Shown here: positions 17,891 to 38,060 of the stretch, piece after piece
Layout of the letters: every line of letters begins with the position of its first letter
Position numbering within the stretch: the first letter of the stretch is position 1
DNA from: Sinohyriopsis cumingii
Lineage: Eukaryota > Mollusca > Bivalvia > Unionida > Unionidae
DNA length: 64,000 bases
NCBI GenBank assembly: GCA_028554795.2
Contig: CM068832.1
Coordinates: forward strand, 85,770,511-85,834,510
Reading direction: 5' to 3'
Translations under genes and position numbers: made by a program
Notes under the pieces: model-generated
Database searches by the model: none
The model's input: only the letters and a program-made list of their open reading frames with translations
What the model was told of the DNA's origin: nothing

Positions 17891-18250
17891 GGGACACCCT
17901 AGGGACAATGGGACTTGCCATTAAAAAACACTTTGGGACCCTCTGGGAAGAATGGAAATTTAACATGGGAAAAATTGCTGGGACACTCTAGGGACAAGGG
18001 GAATTGAACATGGGAATAGAGTGTGGGTCAGTCTAGGGACAAGGGAAATTTAACATGGGAGAAAAAAGCAATTCTAGGGACAAAGGGAATTGAACATGGG
18101 ATTTTTATTTTGTTTTTTTTTTTTTAAAAAATAAATAAAATAAATAAAATAAAATAAAATAAAAATTAAAAAAAATAAAAAAAATGTGGTAGGCAATTGA
18201 AAGTCTATCTCTTTTCGAGAGATGTGGGTGGCTCTGAAAAGGGCCTTTGG
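17888..18250. repeat. left terminal inverted repeat of element B
   Basis: Matches the reverse complement of 37700-38060 almost base for base over the outer 130 bases, then with small differences. It consists of reiterated 'TCTAGGGACAAGGG-AATTGAACATGGG' style phrases, a poly-purine/(AAAAT)n stretch at 18107-18185 and, at its inner edge, the histone-type 3' end of gene X1. The repeat therefore includes a functional-looking gene terminus. Confidence 0.92.
18200..18245 (-). terminator. histone-type 3' end of X1: stem-loop plus U7-like element
   Basis: The - strand reads GGCCCTTTTCAGAGCC at 18245-18230, a 6-bp stem with one C-A mismatch and a TTTC loop. ACCCA follows immediately, then CTCTCGAAAAGAGATAG about 10 nt later. 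This is the order and spacing of metazoan replication-dependent histone mRNA 3' ends, in which SLBP binds the stem-loop and U7 snRNA pairs with the downstream purine element. The stop codon of X1 ends 26 nt upstream. Confidence 0.75.
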
Positions 18251-18270
18251 TTCATCATCATCTTTTTCTT

Positions 18271-18861
18271 TTATTTCCTCCACTGCTTCCACCAAGTTCT
18301 CACTTTTACCAGTATTCCTTTCTTCTTCTCCTTCTCTGGCATCCAGTCTGGATGACCTATTGCTCGGAATTTCTCCTGTATTATGATGCAACTGTTGATG
18401 AGTTTGTCAAAGGCCTCTTTTTTCTTTAAGTTTTCCTTATCCTTTCGTTCTTTATTCCACTTGTCTTTGATCTTCTTTACTTCTTCCTCCATTACTTTTC
18501 TCATAAGTTCTTCCGATTTCTTAAGCTGGTCCAGGCCTTTTTTGACAAAGGACCACTCTGTCCATTCCATTACATCTTCCAAAAAGCACCTTACTTCTAT
18601 CACATTATCCATGGCTTCCTTTAAGTGACCAATCTTTACATACTCTGGAGCTATAAAGCCTCTTAGTCTTTTTACTTCTTCTTCTATCATCTCTTTGACC
18701 AGATCCATAGCTAATTTCAGGTTGGTCACTTGCCTTCTGACAAAATCTCGGGTAACTTCATGCTTCCATTCTCGTTCAATCATTTCCACTGCATAAGCTC
18801 CATCCACTATCCAATACCAAATGTCCTTCAACTGGTTAAACAATTATGTTACAGCTACCAT
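18271..18861 (-). pseudogene. X1: charged helical accessory protein (one internal stop)
   Basis: No homologue is recognised. The frame from the ATG at 18861 contains a TAA after five codons (18844-18846) and then runs open for about 190 codons; initiation at a later in-frame ATG (about residue 21 of the long segment) is possible. The protein is rich in Lys, Glu and Trp and looks all-helical, with a likely coiled coil in the second half (KKSEELMRKVMEEEVKK). A TATA-like AACTATAAG at 18913-18921 and two copies of the GCGCGGACGTGAAGG cassette lie upstream. The mRNA would end at the stem-loop 26 nt beyond the stop. Confidence 0.55.
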
Positions 18862-18899
18862 CTTCCTTGTCTTTATTCCGTAGAATGGTTCCAACATCA

Positions 18900-19010
18900 A
18901 ACCTAGTGGGTTCTTATAGTTAAAGCGCGGAGGTGATGGAAAACATCCCCCTAAAACAAAATTGATATTACCTAGATCATTACTTAAAACGCGCGGACGT
19001 GAAGGAAAAC
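18900..19010 (-). promoter_or_regulatory. promoter cassette of X1
   Basis: On the + strand the motif AAAGCGCGGAGGTGATGG (from 18922) and a second copy AACGCGCGGACGTGAAGG (from 18988) precede X1. Between the first copy and the ATG is TATA-like CTTATAGTT. Equivalent pairs lie upstream of X2 (19722, 19790) and X3 (20592), so the module was duplicated with the genes. Confidence 0.55.
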
Positions 19011-19304
19011 TTCCCCTACTTTTCTCATTTCATATGATCTGCTATCCACATACGTAAAGCAGCAATAAACAAACCCAAAATCTACTATTCACACACGCAA
19101 AGCATTAAAATGAAACCCCAAATTTACTATCCACACACGCAATGCATTAAAATTAAACCCAAATCTACTATTCAAACAAACGTACGTGAGCGCTTACAAA
19201 CATAAACACAAACACTATAAAAAAAGAGTGAGTGTTTATATTCACACTACTCTACATACACACATTGGCAAATAGATTACTATATCTTTTCTAGAGACTG
19301 GGGT

Positions 19305-19320
19305 AGCCCTAAATGACACC
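19305..19320 (-). promoter_or_regulatory. decayed histone-type stem-loop after X2
   Basis: The - strand reads GGTGTCATTTAGGGCT, then ACCCC and, 10-20 nt on, TCTAGAAAAGATATAG. The 3' arm, flank and purine element are recognisable, but the 5' arm has lost most pairing. It occupies the same cassette position as the intact sites of X1 and X3. Confidence 0.5.
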
Positions 19321-19371
19321 TGGTTAATGATGGCACCTTCCAGGCCTGGCACCACACACACATCTTCTTCC

Positions 19372-19665
19372 CCAGTCTCATTTCACTCCTTTTGGGGGGA
19401 GAGCAGAGGCGGGATAAGTGGCTTCAGAATCCCAATCTTCTGTCTCTGGGATTCTGAAATTTCCTCTCTCCTTTTCTTCCTCTTCTTTGTTTCTTCATTC
19501 CTCCTCTTCTTTGTTTCTTCTCTCCTCCTCTTCTTTGTTTCTTCTCTCCTCCTCTTTCACCCTTCCCTCTTCTACTAGGGCCTCTGCAGCCAGCTCATTC
19601 ACTATACACCTGGCATATTCCAGGTGTACATGAAGTTCAAGCAGTTTTGCTAGTCTGGTGTTCAT
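19372..19665 (-). pseudogene. X2: Glu/Lys/Arg-repeat accessory protein (frameshifted)
   Basis: The ATG at 19665 starts MNTRLAKLLELHVHLE. A helical segment follows, then a tandem repeat of about seven residues (EERRNKE). The frame is lost inside the repeat near 19495 and another frame carries an acidic tail to about 19372. No family is recognised. TATA-like GTATAAATTG at 19711-19720 lies 46-55 nt upstream of the ATG, within the shared promoter cassette. The C-terminal extent is uncertain. Confidence 0.5.
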
Positions 19666-19710
19666 TCTCTTGATCAATCAACAAGGGTAGCTAGACTGCC
19701 GAGCGAGTTT

Positions 19711-19810
19711 CAATTTATACTAAAAGCGCGGACGTGAAGGAAACCATTCCCCTAAGACCAAAGTTATATTACCTAGATCATGATCAAACAACGTGCGGAC
19801 CTAAAAGAAA
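19711..19810 (-). promoter_or_regulatory. promoter cassette of X2
   Basis: TATA-like GTATAAATTG (19720-19711, - strand) is preceded by the AAAGCGCGGACGTGAAGG motif (+ strand from 19723) and a second, diverged copy near 19790. The phrase ATATTACCTAGATCAT between the copies also occurs upstream of X1 (18966-18981), showing cassette duplication. Confidence 0.55.
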
Positions 19811-20083
19811 CACTCACTCACTTTTTATACTACCCATTACTAATTTAAAAATTTTCATTAATCACTTCAATATACTATCCACATACGCAAAGCAATCAAA
19901 TCAAACCCCAAATCTACTCTCCCCACACGTCAAACAGCAAAAAAAAAAAACATGATCATGATCTACTATCCACACAAACTTACGTGATCACTTACAAACA
20001 CACAATCATATACACAAGCACATACACTCTATAAAAAAGAGTCAGTGTTTATACTCACACTACTCTACATACGCACATTGGCA

Positions 20084-20133
20084 AATGGATTGTTATTTCT
20101 TTTCTAGAGTATTGGTTAGCCCTGAAAAGGGCT
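20084..20133 (-). terminator. histone-type 3' end of X3: perfect stem-loop plus U7-like element
   Basis: The - strand reads AGCCCTTTTCAGGGCT at 20133-20118, a perfect 6-bp stem with a TTTC loop. AACCA follows, then CTCTAGAAAAGAAATAAC. The outer pair is A-T here but G-C in the terminal-repeat copies, a compensating change that keeps the stem. It begins 40 nt after the X3 stop codon, a normal distance for histone mRNAs. Confidence 0.8.
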
Positions 20134-20172
20134 GTTTTTTTGCTTGTGCAAAGTTGAAGCTAGGGCGATCTT

Positions 20173-20530
20173 TTAGTTTCTAAGAATGCGACGTCCTCTG
20201 ACAATAGACTTTCTGACGATAGGTCTGCTTCTTCGGAAAGAGAAGAAGAACTCTTTGATGTCGATACGACAATCGATAAAGCCTCTGTCAGGTTCAGGTT
20301 CCTGCTGTTGTTGTTGTTGCTGTTGCTGCTCTCTCTGCTGTTTCTGAAGTCTGTACTTCTCTGTCCATTCTTCTTTTTCCCTGTTCACTTCTTCTCTGAA
20401 GTTCTCTTCTATCAGGTGTTCAGTGACTTTTAACATTCTCACATTCTCTGTCTCTTCTGGCTTCGGTATCAGACTGTGTCTGACCCTATGCAACGTAGGC
20501 TTCGTTTAGTTTAGCTAGTTTGGAGCACAT
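20173..20530 (-). pseudogene. X3: charged protein with Gln tract (single frameshift near the start)
   Basis: The ATG at 20530 opens MCSKLAKLNEAYV. One base is missing relative to the element A copy near 20494, and the rest reads in the neighbouring frame: HRVR-SLI, an acidic helical stretch, a run of about nine Gln, then a basic tail (FRRSRPIVRKSIVRGRR) that looks like a nucleic-acid-binding or nuclear-targeting segment. No known family is recognised. The homologue in element A (7909-8118) keeps the N-terminus in frame. Its 3' end is the best histone-like stem-loop in the window. Confidence 0.65.
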
Positions 20531-20858
20531 CTTCGTAGGAGGATGAGTCGACAATGGATGGTTAGACTGGAGGCTACCCCGGCTTTGAAGTTAAAGCGCG
20601 GACTTGAAGGAAAACATCCCTCCACGGTTTTCGAGCCGCAACGTTCAATGAGTGTCATGAGAGGGATAGTAAGAAGTCAAAGAGCATGAATCAAATTTCT
20701 ATAGCCAAACAAACCACAAAGGCATTTTTTTTTCAAAACACATTTTGTATTCAAAATCACTTAACACTAACAAACAACTCTAACATTTTTAACAATAATC
20801 CAACAATATAACATCAAACATTTTTTTCAAATCACAAACATTTTTTTTAATTAACTCT
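20531..20858. promoter_or_regulatory. spacer between the protease and X3
   Basis: Holds the X3 copy of the GC-rich cassette (AAAGCGCGGACTTGAAGG from 20593) with only a degenerate TATA. T-rich sequence beyond the protease includes ATTAAA on the - strand near 20848, a possible weak poly(A) signal for the capsid/protease transcripts. No ORF is seen. Confidence 0.4.
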
Positions 20859-21419
20859 TTACTTTACACAGGGTTGACAACGTTGTGAATGAAATTGTGA
20901 TTTCCACTGTTGGAAGTCATTAGGCCATTCATGGACACTACGTTTCCTAGCTTGAGACAAAAGATAAGCATAATGGTCACAAAACCATTGATCTACTTTC
21001 ACATCGTTTCTTGAAGAAGAACGAGTATCAAAATGAGTCACTAAATGTTCTAAGGAATAGCCCAGGCTGCGATGATGCATAAAATACACACAATATTGTC
21101 CACACACCAAGGAATCTGTGCCTTGTAATTTCACATTATTGAATCAGGTGGTCTGAGCATTTCTTCTCATAAAGTCAATGATATCGTCTTCCAAAGGGGG
21201 CAATCCATAGGAATCGAAATATTCCACACATCCTTCTTGAGGAAAGTAGACGGCTACCCAGTGGGTTCCTGGGAGATGAATGTCGTCCGTGTTGATCACA
21301 TAACCTTGATGGTCTTGAGGTTTACGATGAGGGAGTTCATCTTTAGCACAGACGACATGATTTGAAGAAGCCGTGTACGAACTGTGGTTCAAAAGGTAAT
21401 AAAGTTCCCGGGTATCCAT
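20859..21419 (-). pseudogene. adenain-like maturation cysteine protease, one in-frame TGA
   Basis: Adenovirus-type (C5/C48 clan) proteases cleave capsid and core precursors during virion maturation. The ATG at 21419 starts the frame. Visible active-site features are H53 in GTHW, D69 in FDSYG, Q99 and C106 in VCGQYC; the 7-residue Gln-Cys spacing equals that of adenain. A single TGA at 21144-21146 (codon 92) interrupts the frame between the His/Asp half and the Gln/Cys half, and both halves are in the same frame and otherwise well preserved. It follows gene l and is the last gene of the structural block. Confidence 0.88.
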
Positions 21420-21463
21420 TGATTTGCGTGTTTTTCTTTTTCTTCACAGGTAATGATAAGTCA

Positions 21464-21922
21464 TCAATTCGATCCTGACTTTTTGAAAATGTCTGACAAA
21501 TAACCGTTTCTTCGTTTCGTCTCCTCACTCTGATTCAGGAGAGCTTCGATACGATGGATCTCTTGAGTGGTTAATGGTGGACAAGAATGTTCATGCAAGT
21601 CTTTATACCACTGATTCAACACGACTTCGTCCGAGATGAGACTCCAAGCTTCGTCCAGATACTCGTCCAATTTTTCTTCTTGACTCAGCATCAGGCATTT
21701 ATCGTGTTGAATTTGACTGGGATGATCGTTTTGACATCCATAGCAATCTTTTTTGATCAATTCCGTCATTTTTTCGACCAAGTGTTTGGCAAAACAGGAG
21801 ACTAAATCCGCTTCTTGTTTTGGCCATCTTGACTTCATCATGATAACTTCTTCTTCCACGGTTTCCTCACATTCCATCTCCAAAGTTTTTACACTAGGTA
21901 AAGAGGGATAACAGTCTTCCAT
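21464..21922 (-). CDS. Polinton-conserved Cys/His protein (gene l)
   Basis: Intact 152-residue frame from the ATG at 21922, 5 bases after the capsid stop. It shows an acidic N-terminus, a helical segment, and a C-G-C...HPSQ...H-C motif near residues 60-76 (CYGCQ-HPSQ-QH-CL) that could bind a metal. It sits between major capsid and protease, and I recall similar small genes at this position in other Polintons, but its function is unknown to me. A role in the virion or in late expression is only inference from position. Confidence 0.75.
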   Translation of the reverse strand: MEDCYPSLPSVKTLEMECEETVEEEVIMMKSRWPKQEADLVSCFAKHLVEKMTELIKKDCYGCQNDHPSQIQHDKCLMLSQEEKLDEYLDEAWSLISDEVVLNQWYKDLHEHSCPPLTTQEIHRIEALLNQSEETKRRNGYLSDIFKKSGSN

Positions 21923-21927
21923 AGCTT

Positions 21928-23267: not shown

Positions 23268-23284
23268 GATTTTTTTTCTGTGTC

Positions 23285-23710
23285 TCAATAATCAAAAACG
23301 TCTAAGTCTCGAACGGTTCTTCTTTTCTTTGTCTTTCTAGCTTTAGAAGTGTGAAGTCTGGTGAAAGGGTGTTTTCTTCGTCGTCTCTTTCTGCCTTGTC
23401 CTTGCTGAATGCCTGACTCGGTAGTGTGCAGGGCATTTATAGGTGTTTCTCGTCGGCCCAAAAGGTCTTTGCCCGTTTTCATCAAGACATTTTTGCCTGC
23501 CCTCATGAAGGCTTCTTTAGGGTTTTGTTTGTCGATGATGACATTTTGGAGAAATTCTTTGCCTTGTGTCAATGCCGCATCTTTCAAGGCATGCAATCCG
23601 CGTGTCACCATCGGTTTCAACACCGAAGCCACCGAACGAAAGGCTGATTTCAACATATCTCCTAAACCGTGTCCTCGCTGTCGTGCAACCCCTCGGTACA
23701 CTGGATACAT
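23285..23710 (-). CDS. basic virion core protein (gene j)
   Basis: Intact 141 residues from the ATG at 23710. It begins MYPVYRG with a GLGDML-SAFRSVASVLKPM amphipathic helix and ends in Arg/Lys-rich patches (RKRRRRK, RKTKKRR). The composition and position between penton and major capsid resemble adenovirus core or protein-VI-like precursors seen in adintoviruses, so DNA condensation or membrane interaction is likely but inferred. It starts 4 bases after the penton stop codon. Block C carries a comparable protein at 49221-49664. Confidence 0.8.
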   Translation of the reverse strand: MYPVYRGVARQRGHGLGDMLKSAFRSVASVLKPMVTRGLHALKDAALTQGKEFLQNVIIDKQNPKEAFMRAGKNVLMKTGKDLLGRRETPINALHTTESGIQQGQGRKRRRRKHPFTRLHTSKARKTKKRRTVRDLDVFDY

Positions 23711-23713
23711 GAC

Positions 23714-25084: not shown

Positions 25085-25089
25085 GATGG

Positions 25090-26199
25090 TCACTTCTTTT
25101 TATAGTCGGTGACGTGCGAAGCGTCGATCCAAGAATCAAAACTGGGTGGATATCCTTTCCAACGAACTTTGACTTCTTTGACACGTTGTTTGCCCACTAT
25201 ACGGGTTCTGCGTTCGAGATTACTTTCGATGTCGTACACGTCGTCTTCTTTTTTGGTGACACTTTGTAACTCGGGCAAATAAAACGTTCTTTTGAGCACT
25301 TCTCCGTTCATGTCTTCCAATTTATAGACGGCAGGATGACGGCCATGCACTCGTCCAGTGACACGAAACAATTCGGTCGTCCAGTTAGGTAAGTAACCCT
25401 TGTCGAAAGTGCGTTTGGTTTTGCCAATGCGCACCCAATCTCCTACGGCCAACACTCCACTTTTCTTGGGGACAGCCCTCGTCGGGGACGTACCAAACAG
25501 GCGCTCAAACACCAACACTTCGTTTTCGGGAGTCACTTCTTGCGGGGCACGTCCGATGCTTCGATGGTAAGATTGGTTGCACGCTTGCACCAGGTGCGGT
25601 AAGATGTCGATGTACTTCAGAGTGTGGTGATGCGTGAAATATTTCCACATGCGTTCTTTCGAAGTGCGTTGAAAACGTTCCACGATGCTGGCTTTGGTTT
25701 CGGGATTCTCGGTGGTAAAAAAATGAATGTCACGTTTCTTTAATTCTTTTTGGAAAGCTTGGTTCAGAAATTCGGTACCTTTGTCCGTTAGCCATCGAAG
25801 AGGGTGACGACCGCTTTGTTTCAACACTCCTTGCAGGGCTCGCACTAACTCTTTGCTAGATTTGGAAGTCAAGGGCACGACCCAGGCAAATTTGGAAAAG
25901 ACGTCGATGACACATAACAAATATTTGTAGCCACGATTGTAGCTGGCCAAATGGGAGACATCAACTAAATCGGCTTGCCATTGATGATCGATGCCTTCCA
26001 CTCGGGTGCGACTTCTGGCAAACTTGCGTCGAATGGGTTTGTGTAAAGTGTAGGTAGTTTGTTCTTGTAACCATCGTTGCACTTGAGGTAAACGGAGACT
26101 TTTCAGTCGCGTTTTGGCAGCACGATACAATTTTTGAACTCCTGCGTAACCTGCAGGATGGGACGGATCGTAGTAAATGCTGGCTAAGACTTTTTGCAT
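25090..26199 (-). CDS. retroviral-type DDE integrase with C-terminal chromodomain
   Basis: Intact 369 residues from the ATG at 26199. The rve core shows D77 (WQADLVD), D139 (WLTDKG) and E174 (ASIVERF), a D-D-35-E arrangement. An N-terminal helical region precedes it, and an SH3-like DNA-binding segment follows (GDWVRI...KGYLPNWTTELF). The C-terminus is a chromodomain (YDIESNLERR...VRWKGYPPSFDSWI, about residues 320-365) that may direct insertion to marked chromatin. It inserts the linear element with 6-bp duplications. It is the best-preserved enzyme of element B and could still act on its own or related ends. Confidence 0.95.
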   Translation of the reverse strand: MQKVLASIYYDPSHPAGYAGVQKLYRAAKTRLKSLRLPQVQRWLQEQTTYTLHKPIRRKFARSRTRVEGIDHQWQADLVDVSHLASYNRGYKYLLCVIDVFSKFAWVVPLTSKSSKELVRALQGVLKQSGRHPLRWLTDKGTEFLNQAFQKELKKRDIHFFTTENPETKASIVERFQRTSKERMWKYFTHHHTLKYIDILPHLVQACNQSYHRSIGRAPQEVTPENEVLVFERLFGTSPTRAVPKKSGVLAVGDWVRIGKTKRTFDKGYLPNWTTELFRVTGRVHGRHPAVYKLEDMNGEVLKRTFYLPELQSVTKKEDDVYDIESNLERRTRIVGKQRVKEVKVRWKGYPPSFDSWIDASHVTDYKKK

Positions 26200-26214
26200 T
26201 TGTTGGTTTGTGTG

Positions 26215-26960
26215 TTAATAAGGCACCCACTCTTCCAGGATGCTACTTTGGGTGGGTCGATAGGGTGGTTTTGAAACGGATTTACGTGTCCGATGGGCTA
26301 CAGGAGTAGAAGTCGAAGGTAGTGGTGGTGGCGGTGGCAATGGAATGGCTTTGGTCTTCTTTTCTTTTTTCACTTCTGGTTTCCCTTCTTTCTTTTTCAC
26401 TTCTGTCGAAGGAGGAGTGGACATCATCTTTTTAACCCAAGCTTTCATTTCTTCTCGTTGGGGTGCGGGCGACGGGGTCAAAAAGGATGCTGCAATCTTA
26501 CTTGAAATGGGAGCTGCTGACGGTGTTTGAAACACTTCTCGCATCTCTTCTTCCTCAGGTCTTCGTGGGGTAGCATCTCTGGTGACCCCTGGGGATGGTA
26601 GTAGTGGTGGTGGTGGTAGTGATGATGGTGCTGGACTTTTCATCAAGGTCTTAAAATCTTTCAGAGTGGTAGAGCTGTTTCGTCTAAAGCTTTCTGGTGA
26701 AAGAGTTGCAGTCATTGCAAGAGTTGACCGTACTTTTGCGATTTTTCTGTTTCGGACAAATCTTGGCGATCCATCAAGGACTGCAATTCGTGTTGTAACT
26801 GGGACATCTCGCTCAAATTGGGATTGGGAGGTAAATGCGGGGTGCGTTGTTCTTGCCAACGATGGTATTCCATCCATCGTTTGCAACGCACTAAAGCTAG
26901 TTTTCGTCCTTCCGTGGGGTTGTCAGGGGTCGATTCTGAGATCTTGGGACTTCAGAGGGC
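26215..26960 (-). pseudogene. Polinton gene f: Pro-rich protein read in two frames
   Basis: The N-terminal part (ATG at 26873 or upstream) reads in one frame with the RWQEQRTPHLPPN segment shared with element A, then an L-Q-EL-SL helix and a stop near 26700. The downstream part reads in another frame from before 26877 to 26215, with SPAPSSLPPPPLLPSP, Lys/Glu-rich and Pro-rich stretches and a final EEWVPY. Because the shared segment lies in the first frame and the long tail in the second, a frameshift near 26.7 kb is likely. Function is unknown. It lies 15 bases upstream of the integrase ATG. Confidence 0.6.
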
Positions 26961-26964
26961 CTTT

Positions 26965-27369
26965 TTATCTTGCTCCCACCAGTCCTCCCAACATGGTTCC
27001 CAAGTCTCCTTTCAGCAATGGGCCTAACAAGAGGGGTAAAATGCCTCCACGTTGGACCAACATCTTCTTCTTTTGACGAAGGGGAATTTTCTTTTGAACC
27101 ATTTGGCGAAGAACGTGGCGATGTTTGCCTAAGCATTGTTTCTGGTGTTTGGACAAAGGGATCGTGCCTTTCAACACGTTCAAACAACATTTGCACACGG
27201 TATCGATGACCTCTTTGGAAGCTGATTGAATGAGTTTTTCTCGTAGGGGTGGAGAAGCTTTGGACAGGACAGATAGCATGTCCCCATGTTTGACTAAACG
27301 AGGAGGCAGTTCTTTCCTTTTCTTTCCCTGAGGCTGTTTAGAAGAGGGATGTTTTCTGGAGGGTGACAT
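26965..27369 (-). CDS. Polinton gene e: small basic protein with hydrophobic C-terminus
   Basis: Intact 134 residues from the ATG at 27369 (MSPSRKH). Basic N-terminus, a C-K-C-C-LNVLKG segment, a Lys/Arg-rich stretch (IPLRQKKKMLVQRGG) and a hydrophobic Gly/Leu tail (ILPLLLGPLLKGDLGTML). I recall this tail type as common in Polintons and reminiscent of short adenovirus core peptides. A TATA-like GTATAAGAAA at 27415-27424 lies upstream and is conserved as GCTATAAAAAG in element A. Function unknown. Confidence 0.8.
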   Translation of the reverse strand: MSPSRKHPSSKQPQGKKRKELPPRLVKHGDMLSVLSKASPPLREKLIQSASKEVIDTVCKCCLNVLKGTIPLSKHQKQCLGKHRHVLRQMVQKKIPLRQKKKMLVQRGGILPLLLGPLLKGDLGTMLGGLVGAR

Positions 27370-27418
27370 CTTCAGGAGTACCAAAACACTGATGCCCCGA
27401 CTTGGACACACACCTTTC

Positions 27419-28372
27419 TTATACTGGAACGCGTCGCCACTGACTGTCTTTACCTCGCATCAACTTCAGGACAGGCATGACACGTCGTGCAGGGGTACGC
27501 AACGGACTAAATCGAGCCAGTTCTTGCTTGGACAAATCCAGTAAACTTTGTAACATGCCCGATCTTTCTTGGATTTTGGGAGCAGGTACTTTGTGAGCAG
27601 CGGCCACTGTCACTAAATTGGAGGGTCCTGCTACTGGGGAAGTTCTTGGGGTCATCAATGGAGAAGTTCTTGGTGTGATCAACGTCTCCAAGTACTCTTT
27701 AGTTCTTGGTGTCATCAACCGGGAAGTGGATGAACGTGAGGCTGCCGGAGACGCGGTCACCGCCGTGGCAGGTCGTGGTTTGCGAGTGTAAGGTTGCGTC
27801 CTGACCGAAGTGCCTCTCTTGTGACTAGTTTTCTTTTGTGGACTTTTCTTTTTCTGGGGACTTTTTCTCTGTTTCTTTCTCTGTGGGCTTCTTTTCTTTT
27901 TCCGGGGTGGTGTCTGGTAAGAGGAGGGTCCCGCCACTGGAGAAGTTCTTGCAGACACGGGTCTCCTTGGGGACCTGGTCTTTTTCTTCTTCTTGGAGCT
28001 TCGTTTGACTTTTTTCTTGTGGAAAACTTTGGGGGCATTAGGATCCCATCTTAAGAGAGAGTGAATGATGACCCCTCCTAGAGTACCGCTCCCTCCAGGT
28101 TTCAAAATTATTTGTTTTTTGGTTTGAGTGTCGATGCGGGGATCGGCCAGTTGGGTCAAAGCGACTTTGTTTTGATCAAAAAAGCGTTTGGTTTGATGAG
28201 GAATCTGAATGATTCCTTGGAGTAATTGACGTGCCGTCACCGTGAACCATCGTAAGACTTCTTTGAGACTAGCTTCTAAGACACGAGCCCGTATTTGTGG
28301 ATTTTTTTCTCGACTGATGACATACAAGGCACGAATCAATTTGACGGGAAGATGCGACTGAAGGGACGTCAT
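27419..28372 (-). CDS. Polinton gene d: helical N-terminus with Lys/Ser/Pro-rich tail
   Basis: Intact 317 residues from the ATG at 28372 (MTSLQSHLPVKLIRALYV). Residues 1-130 look helical and well conserved in style (REKNPQIRARVLEASLKEVL, then ILKPGGSGTLGGVII). The rest is a highly basic low-complexity tail with KKKKSPQRKK and repeated TPRTSP motifs, ending in a conserved C-terminal QWRRV-V. Likely nucleic-acid associated; I know no assigned function. It lies between ATPase and gene e, and its 3' part survives in element A. Confidence 0.8.
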   Translation of the reverse strand: MTSLQSHLPVKLIRALYVISREKNPQIRARVLEASLKEVLRWFTVTARQLLQGIIQIPHQTKRFFDQNKVALTQLADPRIDTQTKKQIILKPGGSGTLGGVIIHSLLRWDPNAPKVFHKKKVKRSSKKKKKTRSPRRPVSARTSPVAGPSSYQTPPRKKKRSPQRKKQRKSPQKKKSPQKKTSHKRGTSVRTQPYTRKPRPATAVTASPAASRSSTSRLMTPRTKEYLETLITPRTSPLMTPRTSPVAGPSNLVTVAAAHKVPAPKIQERSGMLQSLLDLSKQELARFSPLRTPARRVMPVLKLMRGKDSQWRRVPV

Positions 28373-28437
28373 GTTGACGCTGTGTGAGACAGACGCAAAG
28401 GGTCTGAGGTGTTTATAGATTTTTTTGTGGAGTGAAG

Positions 28438-29166
28438 TTAAGTCGAGGACGGAGACGTGTACAGGACAGGCCCTACATCTTGGCACCAGTGGTGAAACAA
28501 GTGGGTACGAAATCGCAAATCATCGGGGGTCGTAGGTTTCAAATCGACGAGTAAATAGGCGTGTGGAGTTTGAGTGGCATCCTCGTACGCCTGAATCAGC
28601 CAAGGTGTCCCTAACTGTTTGGCTAAGACTCGCACTTGCGATTTATCTCGAGGGCTTTTAAACAAGACCACGTAATGCGCATTGAGACTGATGATGCGAT
28701 GGGCCTTACTTTGTTGAAACAAATTTTGAGTGATGTAAACGACACTGGCATTACGATGATGCCCTTTGCGCTTGAACGACAGTTTAATTTCTTCTTCATC
28801 TTCTTCTAACATGTCGTCGAAAATGACCAAATGGGTTTGACGGGAGTCAGAGACGATGCCGTCGTCTTCTTTAGGAATGCCTTCCACAAACACGATGGAA
28901 TCGCCTTGACTTTCTCGCAAGAGGCTGTACGCCGATTGCCACACTTTGTAACACCACACGATGCGATGAAGTGGACGATCGATCAAATGATGTTTATGTT
29001 CGATCAAGCGTTTGACGAATTCGGTTTTGCCTGAACCGCTAGGCCCAGCAATGAGCATGTTAAAGAGATGGCGAAGATACAAAGCCTCCCAACTGGCACG
29101 ATCTAAGTGTTCGTCGATGACATTGACAGTGGAGGAAGAGGGAGCAGAGACAGCAGAGGTAGCCAT
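28438..29166 (-). CDS. FtsK/HerA-type genome-packaging ATPase
   Basis: Drives DNA into preformed capsids. Intact 242 residues from the ATG at 29166. Walker A is GPSGSGKT (41-48), Walker B is LVIFDD (113-118), and a conserved Gln-containing sensor lies in SVVYITQNLF. Length and motifs are typical for the Polinton/adenovirus-like packaging ATPase. A TATATAAAC box lies at 29212-29220, about 46 nt upstream of the ATG, so it appears to have its own promoter. Confidence 0.93.
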   Translation of the reverse strand: MATSAVSAPSSSTVNVIDEHLDRASWEALYLRHLFNMLIAGPSGSGKTEFVKRLIEHKHHLIDRPLHRIVWCYKVWQSAYSLLRESQGDSIVFVEGIPKEDDGIVSDSRQTHLVIFDDMLEEDEEEIKLSFKRKGHHRNASVVYITQNLFQQSKAHRIISLNAHYVVLFKSPRDKSQVRVLAKQLGTPWLIQAYEDATQTPHAYLLVDLKPTTPDDLRFRTHLFHHWCQDVGPVLYTSPSST

Positions 29167-29211
29167 AGTGTGAGGAATGTCACTTGTGACACGAAAACAG
29201 ACAAGACGAGA

Positions 29212-29220
29212 GTTTATATA
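29212..29220 (-). promoter_or_regulatory. TATA box of the packaging ATPase gene
   Basis: TATATAAAC on the - strand, 46-54 nt before the ATPase ATG at 29166, in sequence otherwise free of coding potential on this strand except the tail of the upstream gene. Confidence 0.55.
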
Positions 29221-29248
29221 CATTTTCAGGACACGTTTATTGAATGTT

Positions 29249-29968
29249 TTAAACATGAACACGAAAGACAAAAATATACAAAAGCCAAAGGCTTAAGTAC
29301 AACGATAAAAGGCACATGATAACCATCAACGTGGAATAGAAACAAGTGTCTGTACAACATGTTTTGGGTAAGGTTCTGACCAGTTCTATAGGGGGTAAGG
29401 TCACACAAGTGTCCTCCCGAGAGGGTCTTTCAGGCCTGTCCACGACAGTCCTGTCCTGGGTGACGGGTTCTTCTGGTACCGTCACTAACACTGGTTGAAA
29501 AGTGACTTTTTTCCTTGACCAACTGTCGTGCATACTGGGCCACTTCTTGGGTCCAAGCCTCAAAATCCCATTCTTTCCAGGCACGGACATCTGTCCAATG
29601 GGGGTGTAAGTCACAAGCTACACACACATCGTCATACACGTCTTGGGTAGCTAAAAGTTGACGAATATTTTTGTCCCGAAGAGGTCGAGAAGTATCCAGA
29701 TGAAAACGCAAGGCTTTGTGCAAAAGGAGTCTTTCGTGACCATTTAAGACCATTGGGGTGGTAAGTACTGATCGTAAAGAGTCCACAAGGAATCGGCTGG
29801 TAAACGAAATCCCAGAAAACAAGTCACTAAGACACACACCACTTGTCGACCCAAATTGAATGGATACAGTTCTTGTAATAATCGATGGTAATGATCCACG
29901 GTTTGAATATGGTCATTGAGTTCCTTCCACGGAATCTGTTCAATTACATGTGACATAAGCCGTGGCAT
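29249..29968 (-). pseudogene. C-terminally membrane-anchored protein of element B (two frameshifts)
   Basis: Not recognised. Three overlapping open pieces continue one another: 29968-29744 (ATG at 29968), about 29760-29510 (H-P-W and W-WDF segments) and about 29510-29249. The final piece ends in a long hydrophobic stretch of about 24 residues (VIMCLLSLYLSLWLLYIFVF), suggesting a type II or tail-anchored membrane protein with a mostly cytoplasmic helical body. Frames run 1-2-1, so two small indels break it. It lies between the F-box-like genes and the ATPase. Confidence 0.5.
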
Positions 29969-30431
29969 GGCAGCCTGATTTTGTAGTCTCTTTGTTTCGG
30001 AAGCAATAAAGGTAATTTCTAACTAGACATCTTCGTTCTCCAGTAGGGAATCTAAATCTTGCATACTGTAACCGAAACGTCAGAGTTTGTCTAGATGTTT
30101 CGTCTTCCGCTAAGCAGATTCCACGTAAAATATGTTGGTAATCCTTTAACTCGTCTTCCTCAATACGTTGCAGTAGGTGAATCTCGAAGTAACCAAAATT
30201 ACGAACGTTTAGTTCATTCACTAACTGAAAGTGTTCAACAAGGTCTGACCATTGAAACAATTTCTGACGAATCAGTCCTCTTATACCATTCAGGTACCAG
30301 TAGTTAAAGATCTGGTGACGTAACGGATGCAACTGTTCTTTACGTTTGACTTGTATTTTGACCAGCTCTCGGTAAATGCGTTCTCTCAACTCCACAGGCA
30401 AGCCCAAAATGTTCTCTTGTAAAGTATCCAC
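29940..30431 (-). pseudogene. F-box-like paralogue 3 (start codon changed to GTG)
   Basis: Third of three tandem paralogues sharing an opening DTLQEN-LPVELRERIYREL-KIQVKRK. This copy has GTG (30431) where the others have ATG, so the normal start is lost. The frame stays open for 163 codons with a Leu-rich helical body. The LPxELxxxIYxEL pattern matches the start of F-box domains, which tether substrates to SCF ubiquitin ligases via Skp1; this assignment is inference from the short motif. Confidence 0.5.
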
Positions 30432-30666
30432 AAGTATATACACTGTTTTTGGAATCCTTGGGTGGTGGCCAATAGCCTCGTTTACCTTTGTGCCTGATGT
30501 AATATCCACTCATAATCAGTTTTCTTATACTTTGGAACAGAGCATAATTTAAAAACGGATGAATAACTTTGCGTTTGCGTTTCACTTGTATTTTGATCAG
30601 TTCTCGGTAAATGCGTTCTCTCAACTCCACAGGCAAAGCACGAATGTTCTCTAGCAAAGTATCCAT
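30340..30666 (-). CDS. F-box-like paralogue 2 (C-terminally truncated)
   Basis: The ATG at 30666 gives 108 residues. The first 35 match the other two copies (MDTLLEN, LPVELRERIYREL). After about 70 residues homology ends and the frame runs out of register through the start of copy 3. It overlaps the 3' end of copy 1 by 16 bases. The truncation fits unequal recombination between tandem copies. Confidence 0.45.
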   Translation of the reverse strand: MDTLLENIRALPVELRERIYRELIKIQVKRKRKVIHPFLNYALFQSIRKLIMSGYYIRHKGKRGYWPPPKDSKNSVYTCGYFTREHFGLACGVERTHLPRAGQNTSQT

Positions 30667-31082
30667 GAATAGGTCATACTAAATCCTCTTTTGTCTGACA
30701 CAATAATAATCACTAATTTACACATTGCAATTCGTTCAGAGGTTTCCTCTTTCACTAAGTCGACATTGCGTAAAAGATGTTGGTAGTTCGCTAACTCTTC
30801 CTCTGGAATTGGATCCAGTAAGTTTACAATGTAGCAGATCGAATTATCAATACCAAACCAATTCTTTTTAAAACCAGGAGGTCGTTGATCAATGTCTGTC
30901 CAATGCAACACTTTCAACTCAATCAGTCCTTGTATAGCATTCAGGTACCAGTGGTTCAAACACCGGTGACGTAACGGATGCAATTGTTCTTTACGTTTCA
31001 CTTGTATTTTGACCAGCTCTCGGTAAATCCTGTCTCTCAGCTCCACAGGCAAAGCGCGAATGTTCTCTTGTAAAGTATCCAT
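30651..31082 (-). CDS. F-box-like paralogue 1
   Basis: Intact 143 residues from the ATG at 31082. It opens MDTLQEN with the LPVELRDRIYREL pattern typical of F-box helices 1-2, then a Leu/Trp-containing helical region shared with copy 3 (HPLRH, WYLN-I-GLI). Viral F-box proteins in poxviruses redirect ubiquitination of host factors; a similar host-directed role is plausible here but unproven. It lies directly downstream of the BIR gene. Confidence 0.55.
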   Translation of the reverse strand: MDTLQENIRALPVELRDRIYRELVKIQVKRKEQLHPLRHRCLNHWYLNAIQGLIELKVLHWTDIDQRPPGFKKNWFGIDNSICYIVNLLDPIPEEELANYQHLLRNVDLVKEETSERIAMCKLVIIIVSDKRGFSMTYSWILC

Positions 31083-31104
31083 AAACAGATTATGGTAAGT
31101 TACT

Positions 31105-31740: not shown

Positions 31741-31772
31741 CTTGTTCGCTTGGTCTTGGTAGTCACAATGAA

Positions 31773-34700
31773 CTATCGATCTTGCCTAGGGTTCCGTTTT
31801 ATATACAGACCAATACCGACGTGTCCATACGGTAAGGTGAAATGATTGGGAAGTCGCACTCGCTTCTGGTACACGATTTGATAGACTTTTTCCAAGGGCC
31901 GACTGATACGATGTGGTGAGTGGGTAAACGTACAATCTTGTTGGGTTGATAGGTGGTCACTTTAAAGTGTTTATCCTCTCCAGATTGCAAGGCTTCTTTC
32001 AATACCCCAAAGTTGACCACACGACTGGTACGATAATTCAGAGTCAATCCTTTCACTTTACACTCCTTGTTTGTCCCGGTATTCGTAGCCGTAATTTTTT
32101 GGACCGCCACTGACGAAACTTAGAATCTTGTCGTCGGGATGCTCGTCTGTCCAGGCTCCTAAACGGTCTCCTTTGATGTCAGGGTGCTGTTGACTCGGGT
32201 GATGGATGTAAATGCAACTGTCCGCGTCAAAGTACAGGACGCGTTCCCTTAACAGTTCTAAAGCTTCGTACAATTTTAAGCGAGCATGGGCTGTCACGTA
32301 AGCCGTAATGATGACATTTCCAAAAGGGTCGTCTTGTACAAAGTCCAGATCTTCTTCGTAATTGACCAAGATCAAATCCTCACGAACGACGTCCACATGT
32401 TTCATGTATTTGGTTTTGTCGTGAATCATCTGAAAGTAGCGGGAAGGTTCTGTCAAATATTCCGTCTTGGGTAAACACGGTCGTTGTGCCATTTTACCCC
32501 ACAAGCAATTTAACATCACTTTGGCAAACGATCGCCTTCCTTCGTTTTTCTCGATGTGATCTAAAGTAATGCCTTCTTGTGCCCAGTATTTCTCTTTGAA
32601 TTTTATTTGGTCTTCGGGAGTGTGACACGAGGAAGGATAGCCGCTGGCTTCTTGCTTCAGTTTCAAAAAGGCATCCACGTAGTCGGCGAAAATGCTTTTC
32701 TGACTGGGGTCACCCTTGTGATATTGTTGTGTCTTGGGAAAATGACAAATTTCGTACACTTCTAACACTTGGTATCCCATGTCCAGAGCTTTGAACAATT
32801 CTACGCTGACCCAGGTTCCCGTCAAAGCCCGTTCTTCCTGGGTGTGCTGACAAGTTTGGTCTTGGTTGCACGTTTCGGCACAAGTACGGCACAAAGGAAA
32901 CATCATTTTGCCTTGGCAATGGTGAGGTAAGACGGGATGGTACAAGTCCTTGGGAGGCAAAACTTTGCACTTGATCAAGCCTTCGTATTGTCGAACGTTT
33001 TTCAGGTCGATGTGTTCCGTCAACAATTGTGGGTGCCCTGCAGGAAAGCGACAATATTTGCACACGTAGGGATACAGCAAACACACGTCCAAGTATTTGA
33101 TTTCTTCTCCTTTCTCTTCGTCAGCTTGGTACAGCAAACAAGTGGCATTGGTCCTTCCTCCGTACAAACTATCCCTCGGGTTCAGGGAGTCCATGAACTG
33201 GTAACTTTCCACGAGGCGTTTAAATTTGGGATCAGTTTTCAAACGGTGATCGTATTCGTGTTCCCACATTTCCACCACTTGGTATCCTTGCTGTTCTAAC
33301 TTTAGGCGTCGCTGACAAGTGGCCTGGTACAAGTCTTCCATGATTCGTTGTAAAAACTGATTTTTAGTGCCACGGTCAGGGTAACAGACGGGACATCCGT
33401 GAAATAAGCAACCGTTAAACTCGTACACGATCTTGGGGTTTTCTAAGTCCCAGCCATCGACCGAATGCTTTCTAATGGTCTTTTCGCCCCCTCCGTTGCG
33501 GGCATGCTGAATCCATTTGTCTTCCTTGTCGCACAAGTAATGTAACCAGCGTAGGGCTTTGACCGAGTATTGACGTTTGACAAAGTTGGTCGTTTGAGGA
33601 CTGATGACAGCTACGGTGTTTTCAGGCATGAATCGTTGCCGGTACACTAAGGAACACGCTTTGGCAATGGCGCAAGCTTCTTTCAAAGGATCGACCCCTC
33701 CGTGTTCCATGAACAGTTCTCGAACTTTTCCACAGCAACGTCATAAAATGTCCACGTCGGAACGACACTACTTTAACATTTCTTCCTGAAAGTCGAAAGA
33801 TTCGGAGGCGTGAGCCTGGTACCAAGCGTAGAAAGCTTCTCGTTGATCGGTACGCATGTTGTCAGGGTCGTAATAGTGAGCCTCAGGCAAATGGGGTAGA
33901 ACGGCGTGTTGATTGGCTTCCGTATTGAAAAAGTGTGGAAAGTACCCTTTAGCCATTTCTGTCATTCCAAATGTTTTAGGCATTCGACTCAAAGGCATGG
34001 CTAAGTAGCTCATCGAATCTTTAAACTGCACTTGTCCCACTTGCATGAAAATGATTTTGGCTCCGTTCAAAGTGACTTTAGGACGTTCGGTGCCTTGTTC
34101 CGTATAGTATCTCAAAAGAAACTGTCCATCGTATCCGGAGAAATTGTGAGCCATGACGATGACAATCTCCGTAACGTTCGATGTCCTCTTGGCTCCACGT
34201 CTTGTCGATGGCGTCTAAGACTCATTGGGCAAAATCAGCTAGCTTGTTCGGTCCTAAAAAGATTTTTTCACGCCCTCCGGGAATCTTGCTGCAGTGAGGG
34301 CAATGACTGAAGATAGGTTCTTGAATGCACTTCTCGCACGCTCGATGAGCCACGCAGAAATTAGGAATGTGAATGCCGGTCTCTTGCATGCATTCGAAAT
34401 CGAAAAAGATAAAATTGCCTTTCTTCTTGTGTCCATCCTCTTTCTCTGGTTGGGGTTGGTATTTTTGCACGTAGCATTGGTGTTCCAAGTCCACGATGTG
34501 GCGACAAATGTGACATTTTGTCTTTCCTGAACATACGTGTGCGTTGGTACTATTGGTACGTAGACCTTGTCCACACGTAGGGCACAATCTCAGCAGTTGA
34601 CAAGCACATTTCTGCTGTGAACCTTGCGTCTTCAGATGTTGTTGGTAACAGGTAGGACTGACAAACGTGCGCTGACAAGCTGGACAATGCACTGGTTTTT

Positions 34701-35818
34701 GCCCTTCGCTCAGACAGGGTGGAGAGGCCAAACATCCTGAGCATTTCGATCCGCAATGTTTGTGTTGCTCTCGATTTTTATAGCCATAGTCACATTACTC
34801 ACAATAATAACCGTATCCCAGGAATCCGGTGATACTGGTAATGGTATCAAAATGGTCATCGTGATGATAGACGTGAATGTATTTTCCATCCTTAAAGTCT
34901 TTCCCTCGAAACAACAGAGGCCCACGCATTTCTTGAGGGTGCACTTTCAAGGTGTAGCGTGGAGCTAGGACATCTTGCAATTTTTGCATTTCAGGAATGC
35001 CGCAGGGTGTTTTCTTTGGGCAAGTCGGCTTGTTGCAACAGGAGTTCTGCTTCACTTCGTTGTTTGGCTCGGTCCGATTTTCGAATATTCTCCCAGGCTC
35101 TTTTCCATTCTACCGTGTCGTTTTTGTTGGCATAAGTTCGTCCCACCAATTTGGCCCTGGCTAAACACATCTGGTCTTGAGGGTTGTGAATTCGGACGAG
35201 ACTTGTTTTGGTGCTGCGAAGCTCGACCACCAATAACATCTTTTTGCGTCCAGTCCCTTGAGGAGGAGAGACGTGGGTCATGTCCAGTGTGGCTTTTCCA
35301 TCGGTGATGTCAAACTGGTCATTGGATTGTTGTACGTGTTGAATTTTGTCCATGACTTTGGAAGCGGTCAATTCTGCAGGGCTGGTAAACTCGATACGAA
35401 CAGGGGATTTCAAGCCGTCGTGTTGTATGGAAAGTCTCAAACGATCGTCTTCTTTGGGTTGACATTGTCTCTTGAGTGTGGTGAGTAAAGAATCCCACAC
35501 CCCGGTGATGAACCCCTCTGCTTTCTCCAACGGTACTTCGGACTTGAAATCTTTAAACTTCACCGTGTATTTGTAAGCCGTGGTTCTAAACGTTCTAGAG
35601 GAGCGCTTTTCGGTCTCTCAAATGGAATAGTATTTTTCAGGGTTAACTAAGGGTGGTGAACTTTGTTTAGAGGGTTTGGATTCTGGTTCACTCATGTCCT
35701 CTACAAAATCACTGGCATGAATTTGTGCCAAGACTTCAGTTCTGGTACGAGGCGATAGATCACGTTTCTGCATCTTACTTTCTTCTTCTTTCTTCTCAAA
35801 TGAATTGGATCGTTTCAT
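31773..35818 (-). pseudogene. polB: protein-primed-type family B DNA polymerase (multiple breaks)
   Basis: Replicates the linear element. It reads from the ATG at 35818 to a stop at 31773-31775, about 1,340 codons, normal for Polintons. Exonuclease motifs are visible as FFDFE near 34.40 kb, HNFSGYDGQF near 34.13 kb and CRSDVDIL near 33.75 kb. Polymerase motifs are D-x-x-L-L-Y-P (33089-33069), KVMLN...WGK (about 32.50 kb) and YFDADS (32234-32217), where the usual Thr between the Asp residues is Ala. A Cys-rich region (34.45-34.73 kb) resembles zinc fingers. Breaks: TGA 35618-35620, frameshift near 35.02 kb, TAA 34795-34797, TGA 34222-34224, frameshift near 34.15 kb, TAG 33768-33770, TGA 33741-33743 and frameshifts near 32.08 and 31.88 kb. 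The 550-codon palm region (33710-32058) is open. Confidence 0.92.
31796..31806 (-). promoter_or_regulatory. TATA box of the BIR gene
   Basis: GTATATAAAAC on the - strand, about 56-66 nt before the ATG at 31740, located within the last codons of the polymerase gene. Confidence 0.5.
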
Positions 35819-35860
35819 CTTGAGTGAAAAACGTCAAATGACTCAAGTTTAACACCATGG

Positions 35861-35898
35861 ACTAATTTATAGTCATGGCAGACCAGCGTATATAAAAG
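35861..35898. promoter_or_regulatory. bidirectional promoter between polB and the zinc-knuckle gene
   Basis: The 133-base gap between the ATGs at 35818 (-) and 35952 (+) holds TATAAATT on the - strand (35871-35864) and TATATAAAAG on the + strand (35889-35898). Each lies 46-63 nt before its ATG, so the two genes diverge from one short control region. Confidence 0.65.
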
Positions 35899-35951
35899 GG
35901 TATTTGTCTTGTCCTTTCACTATTCATTTCACTCTCAAACCGAGCACAACG

Positions 35952-36425
35952 ATGGAAGAGACTACCCAGATGGAACGTTTCATCAGAGCTTTGCGAGGGG
36001 TCGTTAGAAAATTCTCTTCAGACCAGCCGACGGACTACTCTCCTTCCTTTCGAGATAAAAGTGAAGATACTTGTTATATCTATCAGAAGAATGGGCATTG
36101 GTCTTCAGAGTGTCCAGACCGTCAAAATAGAAAAAAAGGGGTTAGAAAAGACAAAAGTCAAGATACCTCTTATTATTGTCAAGAAAAAGGACATTGGTCT
36201 CCAGATTGCCCTAAGAAACAAGAGGAGCAAGAAGAGAGGGATTCTGGAGAGGAAGAAGAAGAGGAAGAAAGTAAACAATTCTATTTACAAGAGGCAAAGA
36301 AAAAGAAACAGGAGAAGAAAAGAAGAAGGGAAGAAAGTGAGGAAGAAGAAGAGGAAAAGACTGTGACGGTGAAGAAATTGAAAAAAAACAGAGAGAGTAA
36401 ACAAAGAAACAGAAGAAGTCTATGA
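35952..36425 (+). CDS. protein with two degenerate zinc knuckles and an acidic/basic tail
   Basis: Intact 157 residues from the ATG at 35952, the only clear + strand gene of element B. Two CCHC-like units of retroviral-nucleocapsid style are seen. In the first (about residues 38-52) the second Cys is Tyr (C-x2-Y-x4-H-x4-C); in the second (about 68-81) the first Cys is Ser (S-x2-C-x4-H-x4-C). The C-terminal half alternates Glu-rich and Lys/Arg-rich runs. It probably binds nucleic acid or a partner, though neither knuckle has all four ligands. A TATA box at 35889 and AATAAA at 36482 suggest ordinary poly(A) transcription, unlike X1-X5. Confidence 0.7.
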   Translation: MEETTQMERFIRALRGVVRKFSSDQPTDYSPSFRDKSEDTCYIYQKNGHWSSECPDRQNRKKGVRKDKSQDTSYYCQEKGHWSPDCPKKQEEQEERDSGEEEEEEESKQFYLQEAKKKKQEKKRRREESEEEEEEKTVTVKKLKKNRESKQRNRRSL

Positions 36426-36481
36426 ACTTTTTAAAGTGCTCTGTTGTGAATTGTGAATTGGATTGTAACTATTGATAAAAG

Positions 36482-36487
36482 AATAAA
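36482..36487 (+). promoter_or_regulatory. poly(A) signal of the zinc-knuckle gene
   Basis: AATAAA 57 nt after the stop codon at 36425, followed by GT-rich sequence (TAGGTGTCTTTGAG). Confidence 0.6.
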
Positions 36488-36614
36488 TTAGGTATAAAAA
36501 GGTAGGTGTCTTTGAGTTTTGATTTTAAATAAGAAGCTACACTCACGCACTCATATACACGTACTATAGGGGTAAAATGTTTTTTTTTTTTTTTTTTTTG
36601 AGTTATTGGCAATT

Positions 36615-36661
36615 GAAAGTCTATCTCTTTTCGAGAGAAGTGGGTGGCCCTGAAAAGGTCC
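36615..36661 (-). terminator. histone-type 3' end of X5: stem-loop plus U7-like element
   Basis: The - strand reads GGACCTTTTCAGGGCC at 36661-36646 (one A-G mismatch in the stem), then ACCCA, then CTCTCGAAAAGAGATAG. The stem-loop begins 26 nt after the X5 stop, the same spacing as X1 at the other end of the element. It lies outside the terminal repeat, so it is an additional copy. Confidence 0.72.
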
Positions 36662-36686
36662 CTTGGATTTTGGTGTAGGGGTGAGT

Positions 36687-37260
36687 TTAAGCAATCAACT
36701 TTAACTGCCTTAAGCCTTTGCCACGGCCGAGGCCTACTTCTGATGATGATGATGATGATTTGGTTGAAATCACTAAGGGTGGTGCGGTAGCCTTAGTCAC
36801 AGGGTTGGCGTGTTTAGCTCGGGAAGGTCGTATTCTCTTCGGTCGTGATAAAGAAGTCTGATACATTTGTTTCAGACTTCTTAACTCCGCTAAAATGTCT
36901 AACAGTACCGTGACCGTTTGAATTTCACCCTCTTGTTTCTTTGCTGCTTCTTCTTCTTGTTAATTTTTTTCTTACCTCTTCTTGCTGTTCTTGCTGTGAA
37001 AGAAAAGCTTGTTCCGCTTCCTTTTGTCGTTGTATAAATTTCTCCAATTCTTCTTTCTGTCTCTGTCTAAAATTCTCCACTTGCGGTAATGAAGAAGGTG
37101 ACGAAGGTTCCGGAACAAATTCTTGCGAGGTAAGAAAATCCACAAAATCCCAGTTTACCTCTTCTGAAAGTAAGTCCGGGTTTCCTTGGGTGTTCTCCAC
37201 TGCTGGTGCACCCCAATGGATCGTTTTCTGAGTTTCCATCCTGTTGAATAACTGTCGCAT
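36687..37260 (-). pseudogene. X5: coiled-coil accessory protein, frame change in an A7 run
   Basis: The ATG at 37260 (MRQLFNRM) opens a frame with an acidic middle and a Gln/Glu/Lys coiled coil (FRQRQKEELEKFIQRQKEAE). It stops at 36925, while another frame continues from an AAAAAAA run near 36968 through a Leu-rich helix, basic SRPKRIRPSRAKH and a poly-Ser stretch to a VGLGRGKG tail, stopping at 36687. The correct distance from this second stop to the stem-loop supports the frame change, which may be a mutation, an assembly error or a programmed shift. A TATATA at 37290-37296 and an E-box CACGTG at 37300-37305 lie upstream. An open but ATG-less extension reaches 37386. Confidence 0.5.
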
Positions 37261-37699
37261 AGATTGACTGCACACAGGCGCTAGCGAATCTATATAGACC
37301 ACGTGACGCCACAGACTGTTCTCTTTGGATTGGATGCGGGCTGACTGAATTTTGTAACGCGTGTTTGGATTGGTGAATGAACTCAATCAGTTTCAATCCT
37401 TCCTGTACCTATAAATAAGCGCAGTTCACTGCATTGATTCACCTGTTCTCGGCGCCTCAAGATGTGGACCACAGTCGAATCATCAACCCTTGTGTCTTCG
37501 ATGATGTTCAGGACGGACATACCGATGTATGTCCGATCCGAATGACAGTTGTCCATAGGACCGCCAGGATGCCTCAAAAAACAGATGAATGGAGAGGCAA
37601 GGATGCCTCAAAAGGGTCCTGATTTACGGTCCTACAGTGAGACGAAGCCTAAGGACAAGAAGAAGTCACAGATGCCCTTTATGTTAAGGGCATATATAA

Positions 37700-38060
37700 A
37701 CCCAAAGGCCCTTTTCAGGGCCACTCACATCTCTCTAAAAGAGATAGACTTTCAATTGCCTACCCCATTTTTATAATTTTTTTTAAGTTTTATTTTATTT
37801 TATTTTATTTTATTGTTTTATTTTAAAAAAAAAAAACAAAAAAAATCCCATGTCCAAATCCCCTTGTCCCAATAATTGCTTTTATCTCCCATGTTAAATT
37901 TCCCTTGTCCTTAGGCTTACCCACACTCTATTCCCATGTTCAATTCCCCTTGTCCCTAGAGTGTCCCAGCAATTTTTCCCATGTTAAATTTCCGTTGACC
38001 CCAGAGTGTCCCAAGGTGTTTTTTAATGGCAAGTCCCATTGTCCCTAGGGTGTCCCCATT
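37700..38060. repeat. right terminal inverted repeat of element B
   Basis: Reverse complement of 17888-18250, ending GGGTGTCCCCATTCACTACT at 38067. It includes the outward-facing histone-type stem-loop and an A/T-rich (TTTTA)n block at 37.77-37.84 kb. Confidence 0.92.
37707..37753 (+). terminator. histone-type 3' end in the right terminal repeat
   Basis: The + strand reads GGCCCTTTTCAGGGCC at 37707-37722, a perfect 6-bp stem with TTTC loop, followed by ACTCA and CTCTCTAAAAGAGATAG. It is the terminal-repeat counterpart of the X1 site and faces outward. The only upstream + frame with a TATA (TATAAATAAG from 37412) and ATG is 27 codons (37462-37545), so it may serve a vestigial transcript. Confidence 0.6.

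Follow-up and report, generated by a model that had tools for sequence, protein, structure and literature searches.

The stretch analysed here, hereafter the window, comprises 64,000 nucleotides (nt) of the bivalve Sinohyriopsis cumingii (assembly GCA_028554795.2, contig CM068832.1, positions 85,770,511 to 85,834,510 of the forward strand). It contains a Polinton, a virus-like transposon that encodes an integrase, a packaging ATPase, a DNA polymerase and the accessory genes X1 to X5 (Table 1). Downstream of X1, X2, X3 and X5, and facing outwards at the inner edges of the two terminal repeats, lie signals that resemble the 3′ ends of metazoan replication-dependent histone mRNAs, each with a stem-loop and the sequence AAAAGA 14 nt further downstream. 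Histone-type mRNA 3′ ends are processed by SLBP and the U7 small nuclear ribonucleoprotein (snRNP), in S phase. The Rfam Histone3 covariance model (RF00032, family cut-off of 34 bits) was run over the whole window.

Table 1. Position of the Polinton, its genes and its hairpin sites in the window (ORF, open reading frame)
Feature	Position	Strand	Remarks
Element A, decayed hairpin	~7746-7731		purine element GGAAAGAGATA
Polinton (whole element)	~17797-38150		ends are the terminal inverted repeats
Left terminal inverted repeat	17797-18250		inner edge holds the X1 hairpin and purine element; 89% identity to reversed 37702-38150 (454 alignment columns)
X1 hairpin	18230-18245	-	5/6 pairs (C-A mismatch); RF00032 31.9 bits, E 1.3e-5; AAAAGAGATA 14 nt later
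X1 accessory gene	18271-18783	-	170 aa from first ATG; N end shorter than in relatives
Decayed hairpin unit past X2	19267-19325	-	purine element retained as AAAAGATATA
X3 hairpin	20118-20133	-	6/6 pairs, A-U outer pair; RF00032 26.6 bits, E 0.0012; AAAAGAAATA 14 nt later
X3 accessory gene	20173-20436	-	ORF, 87 aa
Integrase	25090-26199	-	open frame; integrase core PF00665, E 1.3e-13 (above cut-off); chromodomain PF00385, E 5.2e-5 (below curated cut-off)
A32/FtsK-type packaging ATPase	28438-29271	-	PF04665, E 2.8e-6, 27.4 bits (cut-off 22.8)
Protein-primed type B DNA polymerase	32058-34154	-	at least two separate ORFs here; PF03175, E 5.9e-24 (32058-33710) and 9.3e-7 (33768-34154)
X4	35952-36425	+	two CCHC zinc-knuckle-like motifs (by eye); strand opposite to other genes; AATAAA 57 nt past stop
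X5 hairpin	36646-36661	-	5/6 pairs (A-G mismatch); RF00032 22.2 bits, E 0.055; AAAAGAGATA 14 nt later
X5 accessory gene	36687-37260	-	split into two ORFs here, 36925-37260 and 36687-36866
Right terminal inverted repeat	37702-38150		mate of 17797-18250
Right-repeat hairpin	37707-37722	+	inner edge, outward-facing; 6/6 pairs; RF00032 39.4 bits, E 4.5e-8; AAAAGAGATA 14 nt later

Hairpin sites in the window and in the host histone genes

The covariance model matched all four sites listed with a score in Table 1, although only that of the right repeat exceeded the family cut-off. A preliminary description of this DNA had reported stem-loops of the exact histone class after X1, X3 and X5, and these were indeed found in place, but the stems of X1 and X5 are mismatched. 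The distance of 26-40 nt between gene end and stem-loop given there was close to the 25 nt (X1), 39 nt (X3) and 25 nt (X5) that separate stop codon and hairpin according to the coordinates. Directly 3′ of the stem we found ACCCA in X1 and X5 and AACCA in X3, as described, and ACTCA in the right repeat. The purine element, placed 10-20 nt later in that description, begins as AAAAGA exactly 14 nt past the stem in all four sites. The perfect fourth site in the right repeat was likewise recovered, as were the decayed ones past X2 and in element A. The latter is a second, diverged copy (window 7823-9729) with an identity of about 68% to 20218-20572 and 26776-28123, in which the stem has decayed and the purine element was kept.

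The 59-nt unit of X5 showed 93% identity to that of X1, and a 94-nt repeat, 87% identical, is common to the ends of X2 and X3. Judged by sequence, the window sites fall into two groups of copies, one with X1, X5 and the right repeat and the other with X2 and X3, and are not independent, a correction to the preliminary description. The A-U outer pair of X3, previously taken as a compensating change, is real and recurs past X2 in other copies (A-U in 11 of 12 sites, A-C in the remaining one), but the covariation is weak, and the replacement of G-C by A-U may be one old change that separates two site lineages. Folding alone favoured the hairpin at the right repeat (z -2.78) and at X3 (z -2.23), and gave no support for it at X1, X5, X2 or element A.

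Host histone genes were found in tandem arrays, with about 8.3 kb between successive H3 matches; the histone-domain search returned 662 first-look candidates in the genome, 150 of which were scored. The hairpin GGCCCTTTTTAGGGCC lies 28 nt past the ORF in H3 and 27 nt past it in H4, and its counterparts are GGCCCTTTTCAGGGCC in H2B (34 nt past the ORF) and GGCCCTTTTAAGGGCC in H2A (35 nt). For H3, the hairpin and the 50 nt downstream did not vary among the loci fetched (30 of 30 identical); the hairpin of H4 was present in 29 of 30, with one variable base downstream. AAAAGA starts 14 nt past the stem in H2B, H3 and H4, the same spacing as in the four element sites, whereas H2A has AAAAGG at 15 nt instead. 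Moreover, the right repeat and H2B have identical hairpins, and a TGCCA motif further downstream is common to the element sites, H2A and H3 (by eye). The claim of histone-type 3′ ends draws strong support from hairpin, spacing and purine element, all of which match host H2A, H2B, H3 and H4. As in metazoan histone mRNAs (the RF00032 family), a six-pair hairpin with a 4-nt loop stands soon past the stop codon, with the purine element 14 nt past the stem as in this host. In contrast to those mRNAs, the genes concerned form the accessory set of a mobile element and no histone is known among their products, their processing is something that we infer, and some copies of the element lack the purine element.

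In a control set of 66,100 bases (50 kb of random host DNA and 16 kb of loci from other Polintons), RF00032 gave zero matches at E≤5. A loose regular expression for hairpin plus purine element matched shuffled windows 10.6 times on average, or 1.14 times with six pairs, and was for that reason dropped as a significance test. By itself it is not significant; what takes the resemblance beyond chance is the covariance model together with the constant spacing of 14 nt and the number of sites in the genome.

Occurrence and conservation across the genome

In the 2.9-Gb host genome, the exact composite of hairpin, ACCCAC and AAAAGAGATA was found at thousands of places, 3,625 in total, with 1,770 on one strand and 1,855 on the other; the reversed control gave 0. 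Several of the 100 places listed face each other in pairs with about 1.1 kb between them, which is near the spacing of the X5 and right-repeat sites. Of 589,472 first-look candidates for RF00032, the 75 that were scored, picked by the search's own ranking, all passed the cut-off, and the best 30 loci were without exception copies of this Polinton family. Of the control genomes, that of Lactococcus lactis yielded a match, below the cut-off. The integrase search, with 111 matches scored out of 44,800 candidates, gave 110 without a stop, the window's own included. The other 110 integrases were 94-95% identical to that of the window, a sign that a subfamily distinct from the copy in the window has undergone a large, recent burst.

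Conservation was assessed on 25 X2 and X5 sites within fetched loci that had been chosen on other sites, which avoids circularity; the X1 site of L036 (six pairs) and the right-repeat sites of loci chosen on X5 stand outside this sample. The loci were chosen for a good site elsewhere, which may favour better-kept copies, a bias that weighs less on comparisons between a site and its flanks. A hairpin was present past X2 in all 12 other copies holding this gene. X2 sites showed six pairs in 9/12 cases and five in 3/12, with AAAAGA at +14 in 11/12, a spacing partly built in, since these sites were placed by a score rewarding hairpin and element at +14. X5 sites, placed by the hairpin alone, showed six pairs in 10/13 (one of them via G-U) and five in 3/13, with AAAAGA at +14 in 13/13. 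Pooled, six pairs were found in 19 and AAAAGA at +14 in 24 of the 25 sites.

At X2, pairwise identity was higher in the hairpin (0.94), ACCCA (0.97), the purine element (0.93) and the distal motif (0.91) than in the spacer (0.79), the next linker (0.64) and the flanks (0.74-0.81). At X5, the values were 0.95 for the hairpin, 0.91 for the purine element, 0.76 for the distal motif and 0.69-0.96 for the flanks. The expected mosaic is therefore seen at X2, where the signals are conserved above their flanks, and in part only at X5. Unchanged stems numbered 9 of 12 at X2, where a star tree gives 0.24 for each (tail 0.00025), and 9 of 13 at X5 (tail 0.013), both figures being made too favourable by shared ancestry.

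Polyadenylation signals were also located. AATAAA or ATTAAA occurred up to 150 nt downstream of the hairpin in 1 of 11 X2-type and 9 of 44 GGCCC-type sites of the fetched loci. In the window, an AATAAA lies 162 nt past the X1 stop, which makes a poly(A) backup possible there, and the ORF ending at 20859 has ATTAAA 8 nt downstream. Among copies of X4, AATAAA was found 53-59 nt past the stop in 7 of 16, the signal thus being kept in fewer than half.

Other features of the element

Five relatives of the X1 protein were found, at 49-61% identity, none of the five with a precomputed Pfam domain, and its predicted fold had a mean pLDDT of 57. A stretch similar to GTCCGCGCTTT was found upstream of X1, X2 and X3 (window 18914-18980, 19715-19781 and about 20590-20650, the first two 85% alike), and these genes may therefore share an upstream control module besides the 3′ end.

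The element has in common with Polinton/Maverick elements and adintoviruses an integrase with a chromodomain, a type B polymerase, an A32/FtsK ATPase and terminal inverted repeats. In the profile search of window ORFs, the PF03175 match of the polymerase was over the family cut-off. In the presumed capsid region, examined at the sequence level for a double jelly-roll capsid, one ORF gave weak, unrelated matches. Among 120 integrase relatives listed, the named ones belonged to oysters and amphioxus. Searches of viral contigs with the polymerase, the integrase, alignments of integrase and of X1, and the hairpin returned no relatives. Two matches of the regular expression in the viral collection (L084 and L085) were taken as chance, with no RF00032 match at E≤1 in either and phage-like ORFs, by eye, in L084.

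The ends of the terminal repeats merge into AT microsatellites, and the repeats contain short tandem units, each about 45 nt long (window 17891-18101 and 37846-38056). In addition, internal direct repeats of 100-200 nt with 78-85% identity were found at window 30233-31098, and ORFs for reverse transcriptase from another retroelement at 60278-61588. Finally, contig L009, which encodes a distant integrase of the Polinton type, gave a weak twister-P1 ribozyme-like match at 14146-14210 (28.9 bits, cut-off 67.2).

Meaning of the histone-type ends

That the window sites are histone-type 3′ ends in sequence and layout, matched to the host and kept in many copies, is strongly supported by these comparisons, and the element likely makes use of them. 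Our reading, to which we assign a probability of about 0.7, is that this Polinton family carries host-type histone 3′-end signals after its accessory genes, which would be cut by SLBP and the U7 snRNP to give S-phase mRNAs without poly(A). The host machinery would cut the accessory pre-mRNAs just past the hairpin, and the resulting messengers, lacking poly(A), would be stable and translated mainly in S phase, as the known histone pathway predicts. X4 and probably the main gene block would rely on ordinary poly(A) signals. The likely gain for the element would be a supply of accessory protein during host DNA replication.

Several results weigh against this reading. A U7 model had no match among the 65 candidates scored out of 801,960 and gave no signal in any control, and a U7 pattern matched 21 times against 38 for its reversed control; U7 was thus not found, and its pairing with the purine element is indirect. 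In the window, the stems of X1 and X5 are mismatched and their lowest-energy folds lack the hairpin. At X5, the conservation of the hairpin (0.95) is equalled by that of the 44 nt upstream (0.96), and 16-nt windows equal or exceed the identity of the hairpin in 65 of 344 cases at X5 and 30 of 344 at X2. The 100 composite places listed cover C1 below 76 Mb, and none of the eight integrase copies of the burst subfamily in this range has the exact composite within 100 kb (by eye). In one burst copy (L083), of which 2 kb at the X1 end were read, the stretch 868-930 holds an intact hairpin and lacks the purine element. In L022, a run of A occupies the place of the purine element. In the burst subfamily, the hairpin may be used in the absence of a purine element, or the function may have been lost at the X1 end. 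Furthermore, RF00032 had no match in nine loci, mostly short pieces, with distant Polinton-type integrases (35-47% identity), a difference from other Polinton/Maverick elements and adintoviruses that makes the earlier attribution of such ends to Polintons in general too wide.

Other explanations have to be weighed against the same data. A histone 3′ end could have been captured once and spread as a passive passenger, through the terminal repeat and gene duplication, with no present role in RNA. The near-identity of the X1, X5 and right-repeat sites, the mismatched X1 and X5 stems of the window copy and the loss of the purine element in L083 and L022 speak for it. Nevertheless, we consider it unlikely, because past X2 the signals (hairpin, ACCCA, purine element, distal motif) are conserved but not the linkers that separate them, and because unchanged stems at X2 and X5 exceed the star-tree expectation, even if relatedness makes both figures optimistic. 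The exact coincidence of the hairpin with the inner edges of the two terminal repeats could also point to a DNA structure with a function in replication, integration or as a boundary. This is very improbable, as the X2, X3 and X5 sites are internal, those of X3 and X5 lie on the coding strand 25-39 nt past the stops, and a purine element at the host histone spacing would be left unexplained.

Little credence, too, can be given to the idea that the sites act mainly as a sponge for host SLBP or U7, disturbing the supply of histone mRNA and not serving the element's genes. The numbers, with at least 3,625 exact composites for 662 first-look histone-domain candidates (150 scored), are in its favour, but the layout is fixed, with sites placed after particular genes, and copy number alone implies no transcription. 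As for chance resemblance, the frequency of loose regular-expression matches in shuffled windows is outweighed by the E-value of the right-repeat site, by a layout equal to that of host histone genes and by 3,625 composites against none, and we count this explanation as already refuted.

The excerpt of a report on adomaviruses describes "Histoid" genes, which encode histone-like proteins in animal DNA viruses (PMC11071296). Going by that excerpt, both cases involve a virus borrowing from the histone system, with the difference that a protein resembles a histone there and an RNA 3′-end signal does so here. Titles and abstract openings retrieved in a literature search described no histone-type 3′ ends for Polintons, viruses or transposons.

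The histone 3′-end pathway is not known to serve genes other than those of histones. With slightly better than even odds, a virus-like transposon has taken over this pathway for non-histone genes, whose mRNAs would lack poly(A) and be timed to host replication, with thousands of sites that probably outnumber the host histone genes. If this is true, the histone 3′-end pathway can be hijacked by a mobile element for other genes, poly(A)-selected RNA sequencing would miss such transcripts, and the element would have a simple means of tying viral gene expression to S phase.

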